From Deltaproteobacteria bacterium (GTDB lineage Bacteria > Desulfobacterota > Binatia > UBA12015), in assembly GCA_016874795.1 (NCBI GenBank), contig VGTG01000058.1:1-32686 (forward strand): 32,686 nucleotides of DNA, written 5' to 3'. The position numbers and the translations under genes are program-made. Of the stretch, positions 15,659 through 32,656 are shown piece after piece; within the stretch, counting starts at the first letter, position 1; every line of letters starts with the position of its first letter. The notes beneath the pieces are model-generated. The model was given only the letters and a program-made list of their open reading frames with translations. It was not told the origin of the DNA and made no database searches.

Positions 15659-17438
15659 TGCACGACGCGGAGGATGTCGTCCATCCCTGTCCCTGAAGCT
15701 CTTCAACTACTTGATGCCGCGTTTCGCGATGATCCAGACGCCGGTCTTCTCGTTGCAGCGCCGGCTGCGCGATCTCACGGCCGGCGTCTACATCGACGAG
15801 TTCGCGGAGCTGCACACGAAGGATCTCGTCGTGCGCGAGCGCCTCGGGCACAACGTGCCGAGCGCCGGCGTCGGGACGGCGTTCTCGCGCGAGGCGTTCG
15901 ACCACGTGGCCGAGTCGAACCGCAACCAGGTGTTCCGCCTCGACTCGCTCACGGAGGACTACGACTTCGGCTTCCGGCTCGGCGAGCTCGGCCTCAAGTC
16001 GATCTTCGTTCGGTTCCCCGTCGAGCACGAGGTGACGCGCCGGCCTTGGTGGTCGACGAAGCCGCGCAAGACGATCGTCCGCGACTACGTCGCGACGCGC
16101 GAGTACTTCCCGAACAAGTTCTGGGCTTCCGTCCGTCAGAAGACGCGCTGGGTGATCGGCATCGCGCTGCAGGGATGGGAGCATCTCGGCTGGCGCGGCA
16201 GCTGGCGCACGAAGTACGTGCTCTTCCGCGACCGGAAGATCCTCTTCACGTCGACGGTCAACATCCTCGGCTATGTCGTCGTCTCGGTCGTCGCGGGGTT
16301 CTGGCTCTACGAGCACCTCGCCGACGTGCCGTACCGCTTCTCGCCGCTCGCCGGCCTCGACGGGTGGGTGCTCGTCCTCCTCGTGCTGAACGGTGCGTTC
16401 TTCCTGCTTCGCCTCGTGCAGAGCGCGATCTCGGTGACGCGGCTCTACGGAATCCGTCAAGGCTTGATGAGCGCGCCGCGGCTCGTCCTCGGGAACGTGA
16501 TCATGTTCCTCGGGTGCTGGCGGGCGATGTGGCAGTAGGCCAAGGCGCGCTGGACGGGGCAGCGGCTCCGCTGGGACAAGACGGACCACGCGTTCCCGAG
16601 CGACTCGCAGCTCGAGCGACACCGCCGGAAGCTCGGCGATCTCCTGCTCGAGCGCCGCTTCGTCACGGTCGACGCGCTGAAGCGCGCGCTGGAGGTGAAG
16701 GAGCGTACGGGGCAGCCGCTCGGCGCCGTGCTCATCGAGCTCGGCCTCGCGAAGGAAGCGGACGTCCTCGAGGTGCTCGGAGCGCAGCTCCGCATCGCCG
16801 TGCGCGAGGTCGATCCGTACGCCGTTCCGGACGAGGTGCTGCGGCGCCTTCCCGCAGAGGTGGCGCGGCGGCTCGGCGTGCTGCCGATCGAGGAGCGCGG
16901 TGGCAGGCTCGTCGTCGCGACGGATCGGCTCCTGCAGCGAGCGGAGATCGAGGAGATCGAGCGGGCCGTCGGCGGACCGGTCGAGCTGACGCTCGCGACG
17001 CGGAGCGAGGTCGCGTTCGCCTTGCGCCGGCGCTACGGCCACGGCGCGGCCGACGGCACGGATTCCGGAAGTCGCGACACGGACGGCGCGCCGCGGCTCG
17101 GCGAGCATCTGGTCGCGGCGGGCGCGCTGACGCGCACCCAGCTCGAGGAAGCGCTCCAGGCGCAGCGTCGCAGCTATCGCCGCCTCGGCGACATCGTCGT
17201 CGAGCTCGGCTGGCTCGACCGCACTCGCATGGAGGAAGCGGCCGCGGCGGCGCGCGCACGTACGCGCGCTCTCGGCGCCGAGCTCCTGGAGCGCGGCTGG
17301 GTCACTCCGGAGCAGCTCGACGACGCACTGCGCCGTCAAGCGCAAAGCAATCGGCGGCTGGGCGACCTTCTTCTCGAGCGGAACATGTTGAGTCGGGAGA
17401 CGCTGGACGATGCGCTCGAGAGCCTCTCGCTCCAGTGA
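15550..17438 (+). pseudogene. nfrB: NfrB-like glycosyltransferase with MshEN domains, headless and interrupted
   Basis: Homology begins abruptly at about 15550 with CPADGPTSKADCLNW; the N-terminal membrane helices and first GT2 motifs are missing. A GT2 core follows: HDAEDVVHP, AGVGTAFSREAF, LTEDYDFGFRLG and RQKTRWVIGIALQGWEHLGW. Then come two to three membrane helices and a C-terminal region with several MshEN/GspE_N-type repeats (KLGDLLLERRFV, PLGAVLIELGLA, RLGDIVVELGWL, RLGDLLLERNML), the module that binds c-di-GMP in related proteins. Two further lesions are visible: one C is missing at 15684-15687, shifting the frame, and TAG at 16536-16538 replaces the Tyr codon of MWQYAKARW. The 3' part (from about 16695) could still be translated separately. 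It overlaps nfrA by 29 bp. Confidence 0.85.
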
Positions 17439-20400
17439 GGCGCCGGGCGCACGCGGAGCGGGTCTCGGTCGGACCGCTCGCGGCGCGCTCGTGGCTCTCC
17501 TCGCCGTGCTCCTCGCCTGCACGGGCGCGGCAGCGCTCGCCACGGAAGCGCCCGCCGCGGAAGGCGAGGGCGCAAAGGCCGGTGAGGTCGTCGACTACGC
17601 GAAGCTCCTGGCGCCCGACCGCTCGGGCGAAGGAGTGATCGCGCGCACGCGGCGCGAGACGACCACCTATCCGTACATCGAGCGTGCGCAGCGCCTGATC
17701 GCGCAAGGGAACCTCCCGGAGGCGCGGAAGGACCTCGACGTCTACCTCGAGCGCGATCCGGACGATCTCTCGGCGCGCTTCACGTACGGCGTCCTCGCGT
17801 CGTCGCTCGGCGATTCGCACGCGGCCGTGCAGGCGATGACGAAGGTCCTCGAAGGACGGCCGGGCTTCGGTCCGGCGCTCCTCTACCGCGCGGTCGCGCG
17901 CCAGAAGGACGGCGACGACGCGGGAGCGCTTGCCGACTATCAGGCGGCCGCGAAGAGCGACGTGCTCACGCGGGCCGATCGCGCCGAGGCGCTCGACTCG
18001 GTCGCGCAGGTCGCCGTGAACCTGCATCAGAACGACGTCGCGCCGAGGCGCTCGACTCGGTCGCGCAGGTCGCCGTGAACCTGCATCAGAACGACGTCGC
18101 GCTGCAGGCGCTCGACCAGCTCGACGAGCTCGATCGGCGCGAAGGCAGACCTCGGAGCGCCGAGCGCGATCTTCTGCACGCTTCCCTCCTCGCGGAGTCC
18201 GGCGACACGAAGCGCGCTCTCGATTTGCTTCAGAGATGGACGGCCGCCGACGCGCCCCCGCAGATCCGCGTCGAGGCCCTTCGCCGCATCGGCGTCCTCG
18301 CGGTGGAAGCGGGACGGCTCGACGAGGCGCGCGCGGCCGCGGAGGAGGGCGCTCGCCTCGAGCCGAACGATCCGGGCTGGCCCGAGCGGCTCGCGGAGAT
18401 CGCCTCGCGCCAGGGCGACGTGAAGGCTGCGGTCGCGTACCGGCGCGACGCCGCACGCGAGGGCCCGTCGGTCGAGCGCGAGCGCGCGCTCTCGATCACG
18501 GAGGAGCAGGCGGGAGACCGCTCCGCGGCCCTTGCTTCGGCGCGCGCCGTCGTCGCGGAGCAGGGAGAAGCGACGGCGCAGCAGTCGGATTTGCTCCGTC
18601 TTGCGGTGCTCGAATCGGAGAGCGGCGAACCGCTCGACGCGGCGGCGCTCTACGAGGCGGCGTGGAAGATGGGACCGGATCGCGATCCGGCACTTCTGCT
18701 TCGCGCGGCGCGCGAGTATCGCCGCGGCGGCGACGCCGAAGCGGCGAGCACTCTCCTCGAGCAGCTGGCGAACGACGGAGCCGCACCCGCGCGTCTCCGC
18801 GGCGAAGCGCTGGCGGAGCTCGCCGACCTCGACGCGAGGTCCGGCCGCGACGACGCGGCGCGCGCCGCCCTCGAGCGTGCGATCGCGCTCGGCGGCGGGA
18901 CCTGGGCCGTGCGCCAGACCCTCGGTGACCTGCAGCTCCGGAGCGGTGACGCGCGCGCGGCTCTCGCGACCTATCGAGAAGCGCTTCGCATGCGCGATGC
19001 ACCGCGGACGCGCCTCGGGCTCGGCTACGCGTACGCGAAGCTCGCGAAGCCGGGGCTCGCCGTGCACGAGATCGACCGCGCGCTCGCGAAGCGCGGAGAC
19101 CTCCCCTCGGAGACGCGGCTCGAGGCGCTCCGCACCGAAGGATATCTCTACGCGGAGATCGGCGAAGCCGCGCGCGCCGCGAGAGCCTGGTCGAGCGCGC
19201 AGGTGATCCAGCCGGACACGGAGATCGCGCTCGGTCTCGCGCGTGCCGAGCGGCTCGCGGGCGATCCCGCCGCCGCCGCGCGTGCTCTCGACGGAGTCGC
19301 GCCGGAGGGCCTCTCGCCCGCGCAGGGAGCGCGCTACTGGGACGAGAGGAGCGCTCTCGCCGAGATCGGGAACGATCGCGAGACCGCGGAAGCCGATCTC
19401 CGCCGAGCGATCGCACTCGAGACGACGCCCGATCGCGACGAGCGCCTCGGCGTCCTTCTCGCGGAGAGCGACCGACCGGAGGAGGCACGTCCGCTCCTCG
19501 CGCAAGCGCTCGAGAAGGGCGGCTTCAACGCCTCGTGGGCCGCCGCGCTCGGTCACGTGGACTCCGACCTCGACGATCCCGAGGCGGCGAGCGCGCTCTT
19601 CGACCGCTCGCTCGAGGCCGATCCGGACCAGCTCTCGCTCTACGAGGATCTCGGCTACGCGCACCTCCGCGAGCTCGAGAACGAGAAGGCGATCCGGCGC
19701 TTCGAGGAGGCGATCGACAACCGGCCGCTCTACCCCGTCGGGACGGCGGCGGAGCGAAAGGCCCTCGACCGCCGCATCGAGCGCTTGCGCCGCGAGGTGA
19801 CGGAGGTCGACCGGTGGATCTCGCTCGTCGCCTACACGTCGATCTGCTTCGGCGACAGCCACTGCCGCCTCGGCGACACGGCGCTCGTCGAGGGCGCGAG
19901 CGAGTCGCAGGGTGGTGCAGAGCTCGCGATCCGTCCGCCGGTGATCGGGTTCCGGAACGGGCGCATCTTCGAGATCATCTCGCGTGTCCTCTTCCAGCAG
20001 GAAGTCAACTCGATCGAGCCGATCGGGAGCAGCACCGTGGCGACGCTCGGCGTTCGCTACAAGCCGTTCCGCACGCACGACTTCTACGCGAGCGTCGAGA
20101 AGATCTTCGCCGTCGGCAGTGACACGACCGGAAACAAGCTCCTGCGCGGCAGCTACGGCTGGCTCCGGGGCTACCGGATGCAGCCGGGCGTGTCGCACTG
20201 GAGCTACACGAACCTCTACGCGGACCTCTCGTACACGGTCGAGTACCCGCGGAACTGGTTCTTCTACGCCGAGGCGCGCCAGGGCGTGACGTTCAACTAC
20301 GCCGACCGCGCGATGCCGACGCCGCTCCTCTACCTGCGGAACCGGAATCTCGGCGGCGACGGGGACGACGACTACAACGACCTCGACCTCGGCGTCGGCG

Positions 20401-20543
20401 TCTCGGCGCGCTGGCTCTGGAACGACGACCGCTACCACGACTACCGGTCGAGCTTCGAGATCCTGCCGAGGATCGGGTACGACGCGTACAACTCGGACGG
20501 TCGCGGATGGAACATCTTCTTGACGGTCGTGGTGCAGTTTTGA
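17410..20543 (+). pseudogene. nfrA: NfrA-like TPR outer-membrane protein, broken by a 59-bp duplication
   Basis: This reads as two frames, 17410-18078 and 18075-20543. A 59-bp tandem duplication at 17979-18102 causes the break; removing one copy restores a single protein of 1,024 residues, close to the roughly 990 of E. coli NfrA. Features are an N-terminal signal sequence (ALVALLAVLLACTGAAALA), TPR repeats over most of the length, and from about residue 780 a C-terminal domain with YKPFRTHDFYASVEK, WFFYAEARQGVTFNY and a terminal aromatic (TVVVQF) fitting an outer-membrane beta-barrel (PF13283-like). NfrA is the outer-membrane partner of NfrB and was first known as a phage N4 receptor. The second frame could be reinitiated but would lack a signal peptide. 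Confidence 0.85.
17979..18102. repeat. 59-bp tandem duplication inside nfrA
   Basis: The segment beginning TCGCGCCGAGGCGCTCGACT at 17979 is repeated exactly starting at 18038, and the identity runs 6 bases past the second unit (65-bp repeat, 59-bp period). The two copies have no mismatch. Because 59 is not a multiple of three, the second copy shifts the frame and stops translation at 18078. Perfect identity means the event is recent, or that it is an unmerged overlap at a contig join. Confidence 0.95.
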
Positions 20544-20551
20544 GGGCCGCG

Positions 20552-21643
20552 ATGCGGATGGGAAGGAAGGGGCGGCGGCTCCGCCGGTTGCTCCGGGTCT
20601 TCGCGCTCCTCTGCCTCGCTTCGACGGCGGAAGGGGCTTCGCGGTGCGCCGAGCGCTCGGCGATGGCGGGAACGTTCCTCCAGCCGACCGAGGCCCTCGT
20701 CGCCCGCGACGACGCGGCCTGGGACGCGCTCTTCGGGGAGATTGCGGCGCTCGGCATGAAGGACGTCTACCTGCAGTGGTCCGCCGCGGACGGCGTGTAC
20801 GAGGAGGGCGTGATCCGCTGGCCGCGAAGCCCTGCGGCGCTTGCGAAGCGCGTCCTCGATGTCGCCGCGAAGCACGGTCTTCGCGCGTGGATCGGGCTCT
20901 CTTATACGGACGCGTGGTGGCAGCGGATCGAGCGAAGCCGTTCCCTCGAGAGCGTCACGGTCTATCTCCGGCGTCGCCTCTTCGTGAACGAGGCGGCGGC
21001 GCGCGACGTCGCGCCCGTCGCCGTCGCGCATCAGGCCTTCGCGGGCTGGTACGTGACGGAGGAGATCGACGACAAGAACTGGCTCGAGCCGGCTCGGCGC
21101 GCCGCGATCGCCGAGTACGCGGGCGCTCTCGCGCGGAGCCTCCGCGCACTCGCGCCGGAACGGCCGATCGCGATCTCGGGCTTCGCGACGGGCTTCGCCT
21201 CGCCGGGCACTCTCGCTTCGCTGTGGACCTCGATTCTCGAAAAGGGGCCAATCGACGTCGTCCTTCTGCAGGACGGGATCGGTGCAGGGCATCTCGACGA
21301 GCCCGAGCTCGCGATGGTGTTGCCCTCTCTTCGTAACGCCGTGACGGCAGCGGGGCGTCAGCTCGGCATGGTCGTCGAGCTCTTTGCCGTGAACGAGCCG
21401 GCCGTGAACGCGACCGCCGTGAAGAGCGAAGCGACGGAGAACGAGACCGCCGAGCCGAAGTGGAGCGCGCGTCCGGCGACGCTCGCGCGCATCGAGCGCC
21501 AGATTGCGCTCGCACGGCGCTTCGCGACGGGTCCGCTCGTCGCCTTCAGCGTCCCGGACTACATGAGCCCCTTCGCGGGCGGCAACGCGGCGCGGCTCTA
21601 CTCCGAGTACCGCGCGCGCGTCCTCCGCTGCCCATCGCGCTAG
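20552..21643 (+). CDS. DUF4434 putative glycoside hydrolase, exported
   Basis: This 363-residue protein has an N-terminal signal (basic RKGRRLRRLLR then VFALLCLASTAEGASRC) and the TIM-barrel pattern of DUF4434 (PF14488): SAMAGTFLQPTEA, MKDVYLQWS, GLRAWIGLSYTDAWW, AGWYVTEEIDD, ISGFATG and DVVLLQDGIGAG. The acidic residues in YVTEEIDD are at the usual position of a barrel glycosidase's catalytic acid. Activity on a polysaccharide is inferred, not shown. The ATG at 20552 is chosen because GAGGG sits 5 nt upstream. It begins 8 bp after the nfrA stop, so it is the last gene of the nfrB-nfrA operon and may trim or process the polymer made there. It is intact, unlike its two upstream partners. Confidence 0.8.
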   Translation: MRMGRKGRRLRRLLRVFALLCLASTAEGASRCAERSAMAGTFLQPTEALVARDDAAWDALFGEIAALGMKDVYLQWSAADGVYEEGVIRWPRSPAALAKRVLDVAAKHGLRAWIGLSYTDAWWQRIERSRSLESVTVYLRRRLFVNEAAARDVAPVAVAHQAFAGWYVTEEIDDKNWLEPARRAAIAEYAGALARSLRALAPERPIAISGFATGFASPGTLASLWTSILEKGPIDVVLLQDGIGAGHLDEPELAMVLPSLRNAVTAAGRQLGMVVELFAVNEPAVNATAVKSEATENETAEPKWSARPATLARIERQIALARRFATGPLVAFSVPDYMSPFAGGNAARLYSEYRARVLRCPSR

Positions 21644-25427: not shown

Positions 25428-26951
25428 CTACACCCGGCCGAAGCGATCCGGCTCGCGGCCGCCGAAGGCGAGCTGCAGGAACTCGCGGCGCGTCTTCGGG
25501 CCGTAGGTACGAAGGCTCGGCTGCGCGTCGTTCAGATACTCCGCGCGCGCCTGCGTCAGCGGGTCGCTCGGGAGCGTGCAGCGCACCTCGTCGACGTCGA
25601 CCTTGTAGAGGCGCGCGGCGTTCAGGCCGAAGATCTGCCGCTTGATGTCCGTCGTGATCTCGGGGTAGCCGAACTCGTCCATCAGCCGCTGCGGCATCTG
25701 GAACGTCTTCAGCGCATTGATCTGCCACTGCGGCGAGCCGTACCAGATCGAGTCGGTCCCCCAGAGGATGCGATCCGCGCCGAACGCGCCGACGAGCTTC
25801 CCGAGGAGGTGGCCGATCTGGTCGATCGCGTTGTCGGACGACACCGCGCCCGCGAAGACCGCGCCGAGCTCCGTGTAGACGTTCCTCTCCTGCGCCAGCT
25901 GGTTCCGCTTGATCGCCACCCAGTCGTCGAGGACGCCGGCCGCCGAGTGGTAGCAGACAAAATTCATGTTCGGCCAATCCTTGGCCGCCTTCACGAAGTC
26001 GCGCGGATGCAGGTAGTCCGGGTGGAACACGCCGAGCTGCAGGCCCTTGTGCGCGTTGACGATGTCGATGCCGAGACGCTCCGCCTCCGCGTACATCGGA
26101 TAGGCGATGGCCTCGTCGTCGAGCTCCCAGGGCGGCACGTTCACGAAGAAGCCGAACCCGCCCGCGCCCGTGTAGGTCTTCAGCGCTCGGATGCCGAGCT
26201 CGTTGACCAGGTACTCCATGTCCTGGATCCGCGTGTCGGTATCGGCGCTCTCGCGGAAGTTCGGCGTGAGCATCCCCTGCGTCAGCATACGCTGCGAGGC
26301 GCCGAGCTGATCGCCGACGTCGCGCGTTCGCGCCATGCCGGCGTTCGAGATCACCGCGAGGTCCGCCTGCGGCGCAGGGAGTCCGCTCATCATCGCGACG
26401 GCGGTCTCGCTGTCGAGGAACATCTCCTTGATGTAGTTGGCCTGCGACAGCTCCATGATGTCGCCGCGGGTGCAGCTCCCGTTCGCGACCGCGTCCGGGT
26501 TGCAGATGCGGAACGGAGCGAAGAAGTCCTGCAGTGCATCGGCGAGCGGTCCGGTTCCGGCCGCGCCGTCGAGATCGACGTGATGTGTCTGCACGTCCAT
26601 GATGAAGTAGTCGCTCTCGAAGAGCTCGCGCGCCGCGGCGGGATCGCGCGTCGCGCAGTCGTCGACCGCGAAGCCGCCGGTCACCGGGTCGCTGCTCCCG
26701 CAGCCGTTGACGATGTTGATCGCCATCAGCGCCGTCGCCATGCCGGCGGACGTTTGCAAAAAGCTCCGTCGCGACATCCCGAGCTTCCGCGCCCGCTCGT
26801 CGGCCATCTCGCGGACGAGCTCGCCGAGCTTCCGCTGGCTCTCGCTCTGCGGGGGCGGGGTGAACTCGCCGTTCGAGACCCACTGCGTCGGGATCGGAAG
26901 ACCGCCGTCGTCTTCCTCGAGAACGCTCTTTCGGTTGGTTCGGAGCAGCAC
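25428..26951 (-). CDS. Tat-exported amidohydrolase (amidohydrolase_2 family)
   Basis: This 507-residue protein has a twin-arginine motif SRRSFLQ at residues 60-66, followed by TSAGMATALMAINIV and a Cys at 84. The N-region of about 60 residues before the motif is unusually long. The catalytic part resembles amidohydrolase_2/ACMSD-type metal-dependent hydrolases: DVQTHHVDLDG (His123-His124), IVNAHKGLQLG, FVCYHSAAG and the metal-binding Asp in ILWGTDSIWYG. Export to the periplasm, possibly membrane-held, is inferred. The GTG at 26951 is decided by a perfect AAGGAGGT at 26963-26956. The substrate is unknown; relatives decarboxylate or hydrolyse ring-derived acids. The next gene is a ferredoxin, an odd partner for a hydrolase. 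Confidence 0.85.
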   Translation of the reverse strand: MLLRTNRKSVLEEDDGGLPIPTQWVSNGEFTPPPQSESQRKLGELVREMADERARKLGMSRRSFLQTSAGMATALMAINIVNGCGSSDPVTGGFAVDDCATRDPAAARELFESDYFIMDVQTHHVDLDGAAGTGPLADALQDFFAPFRICNPDAVANGSCTRGDIMELSQANYIKEMFLDSETAVAMMSGLPAPQADLAVISNAGMARTRDVGDQLGASQRMLTQGMLTPNFRESADTDTRIQDMEYLVNELGIRALKTYTGAGGFGFFVNVPPWELDDEAIAYPMYAEAERLGIDIVNAHKGLQLGVFHPDYLHPRDFVKAAKDWPNMNFVCYHSAAGVLDDWVAIKRNQLAQERNVYTELGAVFAGAVSSDNAIDQIGHLLGKLVGAFGADRILWGTDSIWYGSPQWQINALKTFQMPQRLMDEFGYPEITTDIKRQIFGLNAARLYKVDVDEVRCTLPSDPLTQARAEYLNDAQPSLRTYGPKTRREFLQLAFGGREPDRFGRV

Positions 26952-27131
26952 GCAGACCTCCTTGGGCCGTGAAGATTCGTGGCTACCACGGTTCGGGTGG
27001 ACCGAGCCAGGTCACTCGAGCCCTGCGTGCAGAGTTCTTCGCGAACTGCACGGAGGCGTGCGCCATCCTTCCGAGACGCGGTGCATCCGGCTTCTCTGGA
27101 ACGCGGCTTCGGGACGGGGTACCGACGCCGG

Positions 27132-29504
27132 ATGCGAGGCTCGCCGTGGAGCGGTGCGTTGGCGGGCGCGTGCTTCCTCGTTCTCGCGAGCGCGGGATGC
27201 GAGCGCGGTACGGGCGACGACGCACCGCGTCCCGCCGGTGCGCCCTCGCCCTCGGCCGCGCCCGCAGCGGCTTCGGCGAGCCCCGCGCCGACGGCGTCGG
27301 CAGAGCGCGTCGCTTACGTCGGTGGCGGAGTCTGTGCGGAGTGCCATCCCTCCGAGACGACCGCGTGGCGCGGCTCCGACCACGACCTCGCGATGCAGGA
27401 GGCGACCGTCGAAACCGTCCTCGGCGACTTCGCAGGCGCGACCTTCACGAAGGACGACGTGACGACGCGCTTCCGCCGCGACGGCGAGGCATTCGTCGTC
27501 CACACGCAGGGACGCGACGGCACGATGGCCGATTTCCCGGTCCGATACGTCTTCGGCGTCCGTCCGCTGCAGCAGGTCCTGCTCGACGTCGGTGGCGGCC
27601 GCCTGCAGGCGTTTCCGATCGCGTGGGACGTCGACGAGAAGCGCTGGTTCGATCTCTATCCCGCGGAGAAGATTCCGCCCGGCGATCCCCTTCACTGGAC
27701 CCGCTTCGCTCTCAACTGGAACCAGGGCTGCGCCGAGTGCCACTCGACGTACCTGCGCAAGGGATACGACGTCGCCGAAGACGTCTACGCGACGACGTGG
27801 AGCGAGATCGACGTGAGCTGCGAGGCGTGCCACGGGCCCGGCGAGCGACACGTCGCGTGGGCGCGCGCCGTCGGCGCGAAGGAACCGCATTCCGCCGAAG
27901 CGGACCAAGCGGACGAAGCGAAAGGGCTCTTGACGCACCTCGACGTCGGCCCCTTCCCGGGCCGCGACCGCGCGCGCCAGCTCGCGCAGGTCGACGTGTG
28001 CGCGCCGTGCCACGCACGCCGCTCGCTCACGCATCCCGACGCCTGGGGACGATCGCTCCTCGACGCGTGGCGCCCCGAGCTGCTCGGCGAGGGGCTCTAT
28101 CATGCGGACGGCCAGATCCTCGACGAGGTCTACGAGTACGGCTCGTTCACGCAGAGCCGGATGTTTCACGAGGGCGTCGCGTGCAGCGACTGTCACGATC
28201 CGCACTCGCTGAAGCTCCGCGCGCAGGGAAACGCTCTCTGCCTGCAATGCCACGAGGCCCCGCGCTTCGACGTCGCGACGCACACGCATCACCCGGCGGG
28301 CTCGCCCGGCGCGCAGTGCGTCTCGTGCCACATGGTCGAGACGACCTACATGCAGATCGACGAGCGCCGCGATCACGGCTTCCACATCCCGCGGCCGGAT
28401 CTCACGGTCGAGATCGGCGTGCCGAACGCGTGCCAGCGCTGTCACGCGGAGCGCGGACCCGAGTGGGCGCGCGATCGCATCGTGGAGTGGTTCGGTCCCG
28501 TGCGTCCCGACGACGTACACGCGGCGCGGACGATCGCGGCGGGGCGCGCTCGGGCGAAGGATTCGTCCGTGGCGCTCGCGGCGCTCGTCACGGATCCCGC
28601 GCGGAGCGCGATCGTGCGTGCGACGGCCTTGACCCTCCTGCGAAGTGACGACGACGCGCCGTCCCGGAACGCCGCCGCCGCGGCGTTGCGCGACCCCGAG
28701 GCGCTCGTCCGTGGCACGGCGATCGAGAACGTCGCCGCTCAGGCGACGACACGAGCCGACTTCGAGAAGATCGTCCCACTCCTCGGCGATCCGAGCCGCT
28801 GGGTGCGGACGGAGGCGGCACGCGTGCTCTCCGGGATGGGCCCGCAGCGCTTCGCGGATCCGGACGCGGCGGACGGGCGCCGATTCCACGCAGCTCTCGC
28901 CGAGTACCGTGTCGGCCAGGAGGCGTCCGCCGACCAGCCCGCTGCACACATGAACCTCGGCGTCTTGCAGCAGAACCGGGGAGACGCGGCCGGAGCGCGC
29001 AGCGAATACACGACCGCGCTCCGGATCGATCCGTCGTTCGTGCCGGCGCGCTTCAATCTCGCGATGCTCGAGGCGCTCGCGGGCCGGCGCGACGAAGCGG
29101 AGGCCGGCTTCCGCGAGGTGATCCGGGTCGCGCCCGCCTTCGCCGAGGCGCAGTACTCGCTCGGCCTCCTTCTCGCCGAGGATCCGGCGCGGCTCGGAGA
29201 GGCGGCCACCGTGCTGCGCGAAGCGGCCCGCGCCGCGCCGGGCAACGCGCGCATGCAGTACAACGCGGGTCTCGCGCTCCAGCACCTCGGCGGCGACGAG
29301 GCCGAGGCGTTCCTGCGCGCCGCCGTCCATCTTTCCCCCGACGATCCCGAGTTCCGGAATGCGCTCACGATCCTCTACGTGCAGCAGGGGAGGTGGGAGG
29401 AGGCGCTGCCGCAGGCCCGTCGGCTCGCCGAGCTCGCCCCCGGCGACCCGCGGGCGCGCGCGCTCGCCGCTCAGGTCGAGCAGCGCGCCGGCACGGCGCC
29501 CTGA
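27132..29504 (+). CDS. Exported octahaem cytochrome c with HEAT and TPR domains
   Basis: This 790-residue protein has an N-terminal export signal (ALAGACFLVLASAGC; Cys23 is a possible lipid anchor, though ASA before it could also be a signal peptidase I site) and a Pro/Ala/Ser linker to about residue 58. Eight CxxCH haem motifs start at residues 68, 200, 230, 290, 351, 370, 396 and 434. The arrangement resembles cytochrome c-554-type multihaem proteins with doubled CxxCH (PF13435). Residues about 470-590 have HEAT-like helical repeats (VRTEAARVLSGMG). Residues about 605-785 are TPR repeats (MNLGVLQQNRGDAAGARSEY, FNLAMLEALAGRRDEAEAGF). It should act in electron transfer in the periplasm or at the outer membrane. 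The ATG at 27132 is chosen from the signal peptide; the binding site is unclear. Confidence 0.88.
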   Translation: MRGSPWSGALAGACFLVLASAGCERGTGDDAPRPAGAPSPSAAPAAASASPAPTASAERVAYVGGGVCAECHPSETTAWRGSDHDLAMQEATVETVLGDFAGATFTKDDVTTRFRRDGEAFVVHTQGRDGTMADFPVRYVFGVRPLQQVLLDVGGGRLQAFPIAWDVDEKRWFDLYPAEKIPPGDPLHWTRFALNWNQGCAECHSTYLRKGYDVAEDVYATTWSEIDVSCEACHGPGERHVAWARAVGAKEPHSAEADQADEAKGLLTHLDVGPFPGRDRARQLAQVDVCAPCHARRSLTHPDAWGRSLLDAWRPELLGEGLYHADGQILDEVYEYGSFTQSRMFHEGVACSDCHDPHSLKLRAQGNALCLQCHEAPRFDVATHTHHPAGSPGAQCVSCHMVETTYMQIDERRDHGFHIPRPDLTVEIGVPNACQRCHAERGPEWARDRIVEWFGPVRPDDVHAARTIAAGRARAKDSSVALAALVTDPARSAIVRATALTLLRSDDDAPSRNAAAAALRDPEALVRGTAIENVAAQATTRADFEKIVPLLGDPSRWVRTEAARVLSGMGPQRFADPDAADGRRFHAALAEYRVGQEASADQPAAHMNLGVLQQNRGDAAGARSEYTTALRIDPSFVPARFNLAMLEALAGRRDEAEAGFREVIRVAPAFAEAQYSLGLLLAEDPARLGEAATVLREAARAAPGNARMQYNAGLALQHLGGDEAEAFLRAAVHLSPDDPEFRNALTILYVQQGRWEEALPQARRLAELAPGDPRARALAAQVEQRAGTAP

Positions 29505-29549: not shown

Positions 29550-29662
29550 CGGTGCTGAGCTCGATGTGGGATGCGAAGCCCCTCATCCCGAGCTCGTACC
29601 GAAGACCACGCTACCCCCAACGCCTGCGTAACTCCCACCCACTTCCTTCACGGAGGCGACTG

Positions 29663-30553
29663 ATGAGCTCACGTCGTCGGGTTCTCCCGATCGCAACCTT
29701 CGCGCTCGCGATCTCGTGCCTCGGCTTCGCTCGCGAAGCCGACGCTGGACCGCTCGATTGCGCGAGCGCGTGCGCGAGCCCGAACGCCATCCAAGGTACG
29801 GCCAGCAACGACCGGCTCTGGGGGACGACGGGCCCCGACATCATCTGCGGCAACGGCGGCAACGACCGTATCCGCGGCCGCCGCGGCGACGACGTCCTCT
29901 GCGGCGGGCCCGGAGACGACGACATCCAGGGCGGAAACGGCGCCGACTTCATCGACGGCGGTGCCGACGACGACGACCTCGACGGCAACGGCGGCCGGGA
30001 CACGATCCTCGGCGGCGAGGGCGACGACGATCTGAGCGGCGGCGACTCCGCCGATGTCATGGACGGCGGACTCGGCGACGACGAGGTTCGCGGCCGGAGC
30101 GGCGCCGACCAGGCCACCGGCGGACCCGGCGACGACAAGCTCTACGGCGGGAGCGGCGGCGACTTCCTCGACGGCGGTCCCGACCGTGATCGCATCGCGG
30201 GCACCGCCGGCGTCGACACGTGCGTGAACGGCGAGCGCGTCACGACGTGCGAGATCCTGGGCCCAACCCCGACGCCTGCACCGACCGCGTCTCCGACGCC
30301 GTCTCCGACCCCGGTGCCCGCGACACCGACCCCGGTGCCCGCGACGCCGACCCCGGTGCCGACGGCGACCCCGGTGCCCGCGACGCCGACCCCGGTGCCG
30401 ACGGCGACCCCGGTGCCCGCGACACCGACCCCGGTGCCGACGGCGACCCCGTCCCCGAGCCCGGTGCCGACTCCCATCTCTACGCCGACGCCCGGCGGTT
30501 ACGGCTCGACCTCGCGCGCCTTCGTAGTCGCGCCCGAGACGCTGCTCCAGTAG
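29663..30553 (+). CDS. Secreted RTX-type calcium-binding repeat protein with Thr-Pro tail
   Basis: This 296-residue protein has a Sec signal peptide ([20 protein letters not shown], cleavage after EADA). Residues about 44-180 are glycine- and aspartate-rich nonapeptide repeats of the GGxGxDxLx type ([42 protein letters not shown]), which bind calcium in a parallel beta-roll. Cysteines flank the roll (33, 37, 62, 80, 187, 196). Residues about 200-278 are a Thr-Pro-Val-Ala linker encoded by a minisatellite. The protein ends with [15 protein letters not shown]. Having a Sec signal instead of a type I secretion tail is noteworthy. GGAGG at 29652-29656 supports the ATG at 29663. Its role may be surface or cell-wall binding; this is inferred. 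Confidence 0.85.
30308..30445 (+). repeat. In-frame minisatellite coding Thr-Pro-Val-Pro repeats
   Basis: Seven units begin with ACCCCGGTGCC: 21-bp units coding TPVPATP and 18-bp units coding TPVPTA, in the order 21-21-18-21-18-21-18. The last six units form three copies of a 39-bp composite, and the copies differ only by an A/G in one Thr codon. All unit lengths are multiples of three, so copy-number change would lengthen or shorten the linker without breaking the frame. Confidence 0.9.
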
Positions 30554-30598: not shown

Positions 30599-30706
30599 GT
30601 CCGGGTCCCGCCTTCTTCGCGCTTGACGGCGGCATGCCGTCCGGCCTACGCCCGATGACGAAGCGTCACCGGGCCGGCCCTCCAACCGCCGGCGACGGAG
30701 GTCGGG

Positions 30707-32491
30707 ATGCACCGGTTCGGAGGATCGCGGTCGTTGCCACTCGTGCTGGCTCTTGCGGCGAGCCTCGCCGCTTGCGGCGGAGGCGGCTCCTCCGGGGGCT
30801 CGACTCCGATTCCCGGCTCGGATCCCGAACCGACCGCTTCACCCGGGCCGTCTCCCTCGCCGGGTCCGTCGCCCGCTCCCGGAGAGTGCGACGAGTCCTT
30901 CGACGGCACGTTCGAGGCGATCCAGACCGTCGTCTTCGAGCGCGAAGGTTGCACGACGGACGCGTGCCACGGCAGCGCGCAGTCCGGCGGCCTCGATCTC
31001 CGGCCCGACGCTGCGTACGCGAACCTGATCGAGGCGCCCTCGACGGCGAGCCCGCACCCGCGGCTCCAGCCCGGCGAGCCGGGCGAGAGCTTCCTCTACC
31101 TGAAGCTCCTCGCGGCGACGTCGCCCGAGAGCGGCGTCACCGTCGCGGGGGGCCCGATGCCGAGCGGCCGCGCTCCGCTCGGCACGGAGAGGCTCGAGGC
31201 CATCCGCCTGTGGATCGAGGGCGGCGCGCCGGAGACCGGCTCGCTCGGCGACGGCACGACGGGATCTTCGGACCACATCGCCGACCTGCTCGGTGCGTGT
31301 CTGCCCGCGGCGGAGCCGATCAGCATCCGGCCGCTCGATCCGCCGCCGCCGGAAGAGGGCATCCAGTTCCGCATGCCGCCCTTCACGCTGCCCGCCGCGA
31401 CGGAGCTCGAGGTGTGCTTCGCCTCGTACTACGATTTCGGCGAGCGCGTGCCCAAGCGCTTCCAGGACGAGGCCGGGACGGTCTTCTACGTGAACGGCGC
31501 GCGGCTTCGTCAGGATCCGCAGAGCCATCACTTCGTCTTGACGCACTCCGGCCTCGGCGCCTCGCGCGCCGACGACCCCGAGTTCGGCGCGTGGACCTGC
31601 CGCGGCGGCGATCGCGCCGGCGAGACGTGCGATCCGCTCGACCAGGATTCCTGCGGGAGCGGCCTCTGCGCGAGCGAGGTCCGGAACAGCATTGCGTGCA
31701 TCGGCTTCGGGCCGAGCGACATCTCCGTCGACGTCGCGAACGAGGGCATCGGCGGCGCGCAGACGGCGCAGCAGTACATCGAGCCGCGCGAGGGCGTGTT
31801 CAAGGAGGTGCCGCTCCGCGGGATCGTGCTGTGGAACTCCCACGCGTTCAACCTGACGACGCAGGACCACGACATGAACTCGCGGCTGAACCTCTACTTC
31901 ACGGACGACCTGCGTCTGCGCGAGGAGCTCTACACGGAGATCTCGAACATCTACATCGCCTCCGGCCAGCCGCCCTTCACCGTCGAGACGTACTGCGCGA
32001 ACCACGTCGCGCCCCGCGGCGCGATGATGATCCGCATGGGCTCGCACACCCACAAGCGCGGCAAGCACTTCTGGGTCGAGCTCGCGAACGGCACGCAGAT
32101 CTACGAGAGCTTCACCTACTCGGACCCGCTCGACGCGATCTTCGACCCGCCGATCCTCTTCGACTCGCCGGATTCTCGGGAGCGGACGCTGCGCTACTGC
32201 GCGACGTACAACAACGGCGTGGCCGAGGACGGCTCGCCCGATCCCGAAACCGTGACGCGGCGCTCGCGGATGCCCGATCGCACGGACTGCCGGCCCGTCG
32301 CCTGCGCGGAGGGCCGCGTCGGCGCGCCGTGCTCGGGCAGCGAGGACGACGCGACGTGCGACACGTCGCCGGGAGCCGGCGACGGTCTCTGCGACGCGTG
32401 TCCGATCACTGCGGGCGTCACGACGGAGAACGAGATGTTCCTCGTGATCCCGACGTACGTGCTGCCGGAGGGCGTCCAGGTCGGAGATTGA
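30707..32491 (+). CDS. Lipoprotein with cytochrome-like motif and PHM-type dicopper monooxygenase domain
   Basis: This 594-residue protein is a lipoprotein with lipobox LAAC (Cys23) and a Gly/Ser/Pro spacer to about residue 60. Residues about 60-195 resemble planctomycete-type cytochrome c domains, with CTTDACHG (Cys82-x4-Cys87-His88, not the usual CxxCH), GGLDLRPDAAYANLI and PGEPGESFLYLKLL. Residues about 205-594 match the copper type II ascorbate-dependent monooxygenases (PHM/DBM): HH at 274-275 (SHHFVLTH) and His379 (WNSHAFNLT) for one copper, His447-x-His449 (GSHTHKRGKH) and Met577 (TENEMFLVIPTYV) for the other. GGAGG 5 nt upstream supports the ATG at 30707. Cys-rich inserts (298-331, 528-565) are typical of secreted delta-proteobacterial proteins. 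The stop codon lies in the first unit of a tandem repeat. Confidence 0.8.
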   Translation: MHRFGGSRSLPLVLALAASLAACGGGGSSGGSTPIPGSDPEPTASPGPSPSPGPSPAPGECDESFDGTFEAIQTVVFEREGCTTDACHGSAQSGGLDLRPDAAYANLIEAPSTASPHPRLQPGEPGESFLYLKLLAATSPESGVTVAGGPMPSGRAPLGTERLEAIRLWIEGGAPETGSLGDGTTGSSDHIADLLGACLPAAEPISIRPLDPPPPEEGIQFRMPPFTLPAATELEVCFASYYDFGERVPKRFQDEAGTVFYVNGARLRQDPQSHHFVLTHSGLGASRADDPEFGAWTCRGGDRAGETCDPLDQDSCGSGLCASEVRNSIACIGFGPSDISVDVANEGIGGAQTAQQYIEPREGVFKEVPLRGIVLWNSHAFNLTTQDHDMNSRLNLYFTDDLRLREELYTEISNIYIASGQPPFTVETYCANHVAPRGAMMIRMGSHTHKRGKHFWVELANGTQIYESFTYSDPLDAIFDPPILFDSPDSRERTLRYCATYNNGVAEDGSPDPETVTRRSRMPDRTDCRPVACAEGRVGAPCSGSEDDATCDTSPGAGDGLCDACPITAGVTTENEMFLVIPTYVLPEGVQVGD

Positions 32492-32608
32492 CCAGGTCGG
32501 AGATCGACCGGGTCGGAGATCGACCGGGTCGGAGATTCACCGCGTCGGAGATTCGACCGGGTCGGAGATTCGACCGGGTCGGAGATGGACCGCGTCGGAG
32601 ATTCGACC
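32476..32608. repeat. Tandem array of 16-17-bp units
   Basis: About eight degenerate copies of ACCGGGTCGGAGATTCG follow each other, varying at the GG/CG/AG position and at the ATTCG/ATCG/ATGG end. The first unit supplies the last codons (VQVGD) and TGA of the monooxygenase gene. Unit lengths vary between 16 and 17, so the array does not keep a frame. Confidence 0.9.
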
Positions 32609-32656
32609 GCGCGCACGCCTTGCGGCTCGCCGCGCCGCACTGCGGCATCCAATCTT

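Follow-up and report, generated by a model that had tools for sequence, protein, structure and literature searches.

The gene and its surroundings

The window analysed here is the whole 32,686-nt contig, and its end falls 195 bases 3' of a gene for a lipoprotein that joins a c-type cytochrome domain to a copper monooxygenase domain of the PHM/DBH type (Table 1). The open reading frame begins with ATG and has no internal stop, and its GC content at third codon positions is 0.92, compared with 0.66 and 0.60 in two overlapping frames; judged from this base composition and the GGAGG upstream, its coding character is clear. As read from the sequence, the signal peptide ends in a lipobox of the bacterial lipoprotein kind with an invariant cysteine, which bears out the lipid anchor proposed in an earlier, sequence-only reading of this DNA. 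The residue numbers given in that reading for the candidate copper and haem ligands are correct.

Table 1. Features of the monooxygenase gene, in window coordinates
Feature	Position	Strand	Basis
Entire lipoprotein gene (594 aa): c-type cytochrome domain, then dicopper monooxygenase domain of PHM/DBH type	30707..32491	+	ORF, homologues
Shine-Dalgarno-like GGAGG, 5 nt 5' of ATG	30697..30701	+	read from sequence
Signal peptide of lipoprotein type with lipobox LAAC (Cys23) at its end	30707..30775	+	Cys23 aligned in 25/25 homologues
Pro/Ser-rich linker, residues 24-59	30776..30883	+	sequence
Cytochrome c domain, residues 60-199	30884..31303	+	domain-alone AlphaFold pLDDT 96.9; PSCyt1/Cytochrom_C matches in homologous domains
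Haem-attachment motif CTTDACH (Cys82-X4-Cys87-His88)	30950..30970	+	C, C, H invariant, 67 domains
Met151, probable axial haem ligand	31157..31159	+	invariant, 67 domains
PHM/DBH-type catalytic core, residues 206-586	31322..32464	+	DBH Z 18.6, PHM Z 18.2
His274-His275, CuH ligands (PHM His107/His108)	31526..31531	+	profile alignment, conservation
Cys-rich insert 1, residues 296-331, CuH half between His275 and His379	31592..31699	+	absent from L042, L043
His379, CuH ligand (PHM His172)	31841..31843	+	profile alignment, conservation
His447-X-His449, CuM ligands (PHM His242/His244)	32045..32053	+	profile alignment, conservation
Cys-rich insert 2, residues 528-565, directly before CuM methionine	32288..32401	+	alignment
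Met577, CuM ligand (PHM Met314; TTENEMF vs TSSDEMC)	32435..32437	+	profile alignment, conservation

Further upstream, genes for a Glycosyltransferase 2, an NfrA C-terminal domain with TPRs, and a DUF4434 protein follow one another (15711-21643), and the stretch looks like an exopolysaccharide synthesis/export locus. The gene at 25428-26951, for an Amidohydrolase 2 family member that may carry a TAT signal, is divergent from one at 26979-29504 in which a multihaem cytochrome with Cytochrome_C554/C7 motifs is joined to HEAT and TPR repeats. The latter lies two genes upstream of the monooxygenase and is not conserved beside other copies of the family; it is a conceivable electron partner. Between the two, at 29552-30553, lies a gene for an RTX-type calcium-binding nonapeptide repeat protein, whose Thr/Pro-rich tail is encoded by 21/39-bp DNA repeats. 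At the other end, a near-palindromic unit of 16 bp, GGTCGGAGATCGACCG, is repeated in tandem about eight times (32479-32609), the array starting within the last codons of the monooxygenase gene; the exact pattern is absent from the rest of the genome, and a check for a plasmid origin gave no match.

A copper core of the PHM/DBH type

An AlphaFold2 model of residues 60-594, built with 29 homologues as input (pLDDT 89.7, pTM 0.85), has the two-domain catalytic fold of the PHM/DBH superfamily. All of its top 31 PDB matches in Foldseek are PHM or DBH (best E 1e-10), and in VIA-align it superposes on DBH over 268 residues (Z 18.6, rmsd 3.3) and on PHM over 258 (Z 18.2, rmsd 3.1), with the best unrelated fold reaching Z 8.6. 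The comparison of an AlphaFold model with PHM, suggested along with the sequence-only reading, thus finds the overall fold expected.

Neither the query nor its family profile retrieved a PHM or DBH chain from the PDB by sequence, so it is the fold search, together with a profile built from distant relatives, that ties the query to PHM. That profile, led by L042, a homologue from the Cytophagales, aligns in hhalign with rat PHM over 245 columns (E 4e-7; the rat sequence used is identical to the PDB chains across all 297 residues), and its HH, H, HxH and M land on PHM His107/108, His172, His242/244 and Met314. The query in turn is aligned with L042 at all six ligand columns. When its own family profile was compared with PHM, the Met motif alone aligned, and a narrower profile led by a second distant homologue, L043, gave no significant match. 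The query also misses the Pfam cut-offs, which, like the empty PDB sequence search, counts against the explanation that we favour: it scores 12.3 against the 23-bit cut-off of PF03712 (Cu2_monoox_C), which is passed by L042 (35.8) and by L022, a homologue in the same genome (28.8), and PF01082 (Cu2_monooxygen) matches neither the query nor anything in 198 genomes, including its own, nor in control genomes.

Conservation was assessed over 87 sequences, comprising a close set of 77 full-length homologues and a distant set of 10. The five histidines are present in 77/77 and 10/10, respectively; Met577 is kept in 76/76 close homologues (one has a gap) and in 8/9 non-gap rows of the distant set, where the L106 6300 row is misaligned at this column and has EMC in its own sequence at the expected place. 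Both the CuH site (HH and H) and the CuM site (HxH and Met) of the superfamily can therefore be read from the sequence, in the order that had been proposed from the letters alone, and conservation on this scale in homologues shows that the ligand residues did not line up by chance. In the superfamily these are two mononuclear sites about 11 A apart.

The core also has two Cys-rich inserts flanking the copper sites, one in the CuH half and one in the CuM half. Each carries five to six cysteines that are nearly invariant across the close family, and both are missing from L042 and L043. They are probably disulfide-stapled lids. These inserts, like the CX2CH paralogues and the ancient multi-copy expansion described below, go beyond what the sequence-only reading had observed.

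PHM/DBH enzymes are regarded as essentially eukaryotic (PMC8812541) and as ascorbate-driven. With rat PHM (PDB 1OPM/1SDW) the query shares the double jelly-roll fold (Z 14-18), the six copper ligands in order and a TSSDEMC-like Met motif; it differs in its identity of 12-15%, its two extra Cys-rich inserts, the cytochrome domain in place of PAL, and its nature as a bacterial lipoprotein. With DBH (PDB 4ZEL), its top structural match, it shares an accessory domain placed N-terminal to the CuH/CuM core. L042 and L022 have the same cytochrome-PHM order and are 26-28% identical to the query, from which they differ in lacking the Cys-rich inserts. We conclude that the query is a new variant within the PHM/DBH superfamily.

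A fused c-type cytochrome domain

The N-terminal domain carries a haem-attachment motif. Cys82, Cys87, His88 and Met151 are invariant over 67 aligned domains, planctomycete ones included, and occur in 77/77 close full-length homologues. A survey of motif spacing in related domains counted CX4CH in 92, CX2CH in 15 and CX5CH in 4; CX2CH occurs at the same site in four close PHM-fused paralogues (L097, L098, L099 and L129), which share one clade with CX4CH copies in the tree. The C-x4-CH motif that had been singled out at first is thus the rule, and its two cysteines and histidine are invariant, but its spacing is not, and the alignment indicates that the conserved feature is C-Xn-C-H rather than a fixed CX4CH. 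The wider spacing is itself a known haem motif, used twice in tetrahaem cytochrome c3 (PMC10454114), an otherwise unrelated multihaem protein with which the spacing alone is shared.

The order of elements in the domain model is N-terminal helix (9-19 in domain numbering), haem motif (23-29), helix, Met loop (Met92) and C-terminal helix (101-112). This is the order of class I cytochromes c, and the sequence and model together point to a class-I-like c-type cytochrome with C-Xn-C-H after a helix, a Met ligand and a C-terminal helix. The query itself has no match to PSCyt1 (PF07635) above the cut-off; L098 clears it (26.5 vs 22 bits), and 18 of the 67 aligned domains match at E 0.01. The domain is homologous to PSCyt1, from which the query differs in its CX4CH spacing, its sub-cut-off score and its fusion to a PHM core. 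Taken with the invariant motif, these matches support the early description of the domain as planctomycete-cytochrome-like, and from its sequence it is a c-type cytochrome of the planctomycete PSCyt1 kind that is predicted to bind haem. An isolated model of the domain, built without haem, found no significant PDB match in Foldseek, a result that we count against our best explanation and, since the model lacks the haem, do not take as evidence against a cytochrome. The genome encodes haem-c assembly proteins as well as further cytochromes. We rejected a disulfide between Cys82 and Cys87 on account of the invariant His88 and Met151 and of the CX2CH paralogues.

The two domains also occur joined in reverse order, with the PHM core first and a C-terminal cytochrome, at L106 6300-8792 (from another genus of the same family, beside a normal family copy) and at L025 6921-8717 (in the query's own genome). 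By reading, the copper ligands are SHH, NSHY, SHEH and EDEMC in the former and YHH, GIH, PHYH and DQEMC in the latter. Because the domains have been fused in both orders, their repeated joining suggests that they work together.

It is plausible that the haem would supply the electrons that ascorbate gives in animals, and the fusion in both orders argues for this. The converse, that the copper core is an ordinary hydroxylase dependent on a small reductant and that the cytochrome is vestigial or structural and stands outside catalysis, has a precedent in the accessory DOMON of DBH, a beta-sandwich with a cytochrome-domain fold and no haem ligands (PMC4846438). The query's accessory domain, in contrast, is mainly helical and has a haem motif, and a vestigial role sits badly with the invariance of C, C, H and Met in 67 domains, with the canonical CX2CH that some paralogues carry at this site, and with the fusion in both orders. 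We regard it as improbable.

Ancient paralogues and a proposed function

The genome holds 13 full-length copies of the family and one cut by a contig end, and full-length copies were found in 14/14 genomes of the same taxonomic family, with 2-18 in each (maximum about 18). A phylum-wide sample added six further genomes of the class, in which full-length forms lie within longer frames; beyond the class, a single genome gave a match, to the cytochrome only. The relatives that carry names are MAGs under the labels Candidatus Binatia or Deltaproteobacteria. In the tree, each copy from the query genome groups with other genomes and not with its own paralogues; since all 13 of these rows need their own label change, the expansion predates the genera, and we rejected recent gene amplification.

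This distribution bears on the idea of a non-catalytic surface lipoprotein that binds or handles copper. Surface location and copper ligands by themselves would fit it; the retention of exactly two PHM sites and a haem domain across ancient paralogues argues against it, and copper storage does not readily explain as many as about 18 copies in one genome, which leaves the idea very improbable. Many ancient paralogues are most simply seen as enzymes for different substrates, and the copies would plausibly form a putative toolkit for oxidising many different compounds.

No conserved operon emerged from the neighbour clusters of family copies, and Pfam tallies over 114 neighbours and 114 control genes drawn from the same genomes gave no convincing enrichment. 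TonB receptors and AMP-ligases each number four among the neighbours and are absent from the listed control rows, and acyl-CoA dehydrogenases number four against two in the controls; these counts are too weak, and we rejected neighbour genes as a clue to substrate.

We consider it likely that the protein is a monooxygenase performing haem-fed hydroxylation of the PHM type. As an outer-surface or periplasmic lipoprotein, it would meet its substrate outside the cytoplasm. Its cytochrome domain, with haem attached to Cys82 and Cys87 and held by His88 and probably Met151, would take single electrons from the cell's c-type electron carriers and hand them to the CuH site (His274, His275, His379), and O2 would be activated at CuM (His447, His449, Met577), as in PHM and DBH, with one oxygen atom entering a C-H bond of the substrate and the other leaving as water. 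To our knowledge, bacteria do not use ascorbate in this manner, so a fused cytochrome standing in for it would suit them. The description of the enzyme as self-sufficient overstated the case, since a single haem c depends on an outside electron donor.

Another chemistry or electron direction is also conceivable for an enzyme that combines the PHM copper fold with a genuine haem domain: it could be, for example, a copper oxidase or dehydrogenase passing substrate electrons to the cytochrome, or an H2O2-driven oxygenase. Neither the fold nor the ligand set determines which reaction is catalysed, one haem c may accept electrons as well as donate them, and the neighbour genes gave no clue to substrate or product; the ligand set and its order, however, are those of the O2-activating PHM/DBH enzymes, whose cores need electron input, and we hold such chemistry to be unlikely, though less so than the two alternatives above.

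Haem-fed hydroxylation, if it operates across the paralogues, would extend to a bacterial class in which ascorbate-independent, haem-c-wired monooxygenases of the PHM type, numbering as many as about 18 ancient surface enzymes in one genome, oxidise many compounds extracellularly in a role comparable to that of P450 families; we advance this broader proposal tentatively, as somewhat under an even chance. Should they be active, these proteins would open up a large group of secreted bacterial oxygenases that is as yet unexplored. A cytochrome-PHM fusion is not described in the literature searched, itself only part of the whole, and genome work on Binatota lists CuMMO but is silent on peptidylglycine or ascorbate enzymes. 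Long-range electron transfer between the copper sites of DBH is hard to explain and still debated (PMC4846438), and a natural fusion to haem c would provide a built-in spectroscopic electron donor with which electron entry could be followed directly.

Several further observations concern individual copies. Two or three family copies stand in tandem in other genomes (L133 7287-13808 and G056:C3 372076-376362), and in G396 and G395 a few copies carry one in-frame TAG, suggesting that some paralogues have decayed or contain sequencing errors. On another contig of the query genome (C181), a P450 open frame (L024 6936-9086) ends in 40 residues that are 67% identical to the Cys-rich/Met segment at the C-terminus of the PHM family, as a gene remnant, a chimera or a tail swap.
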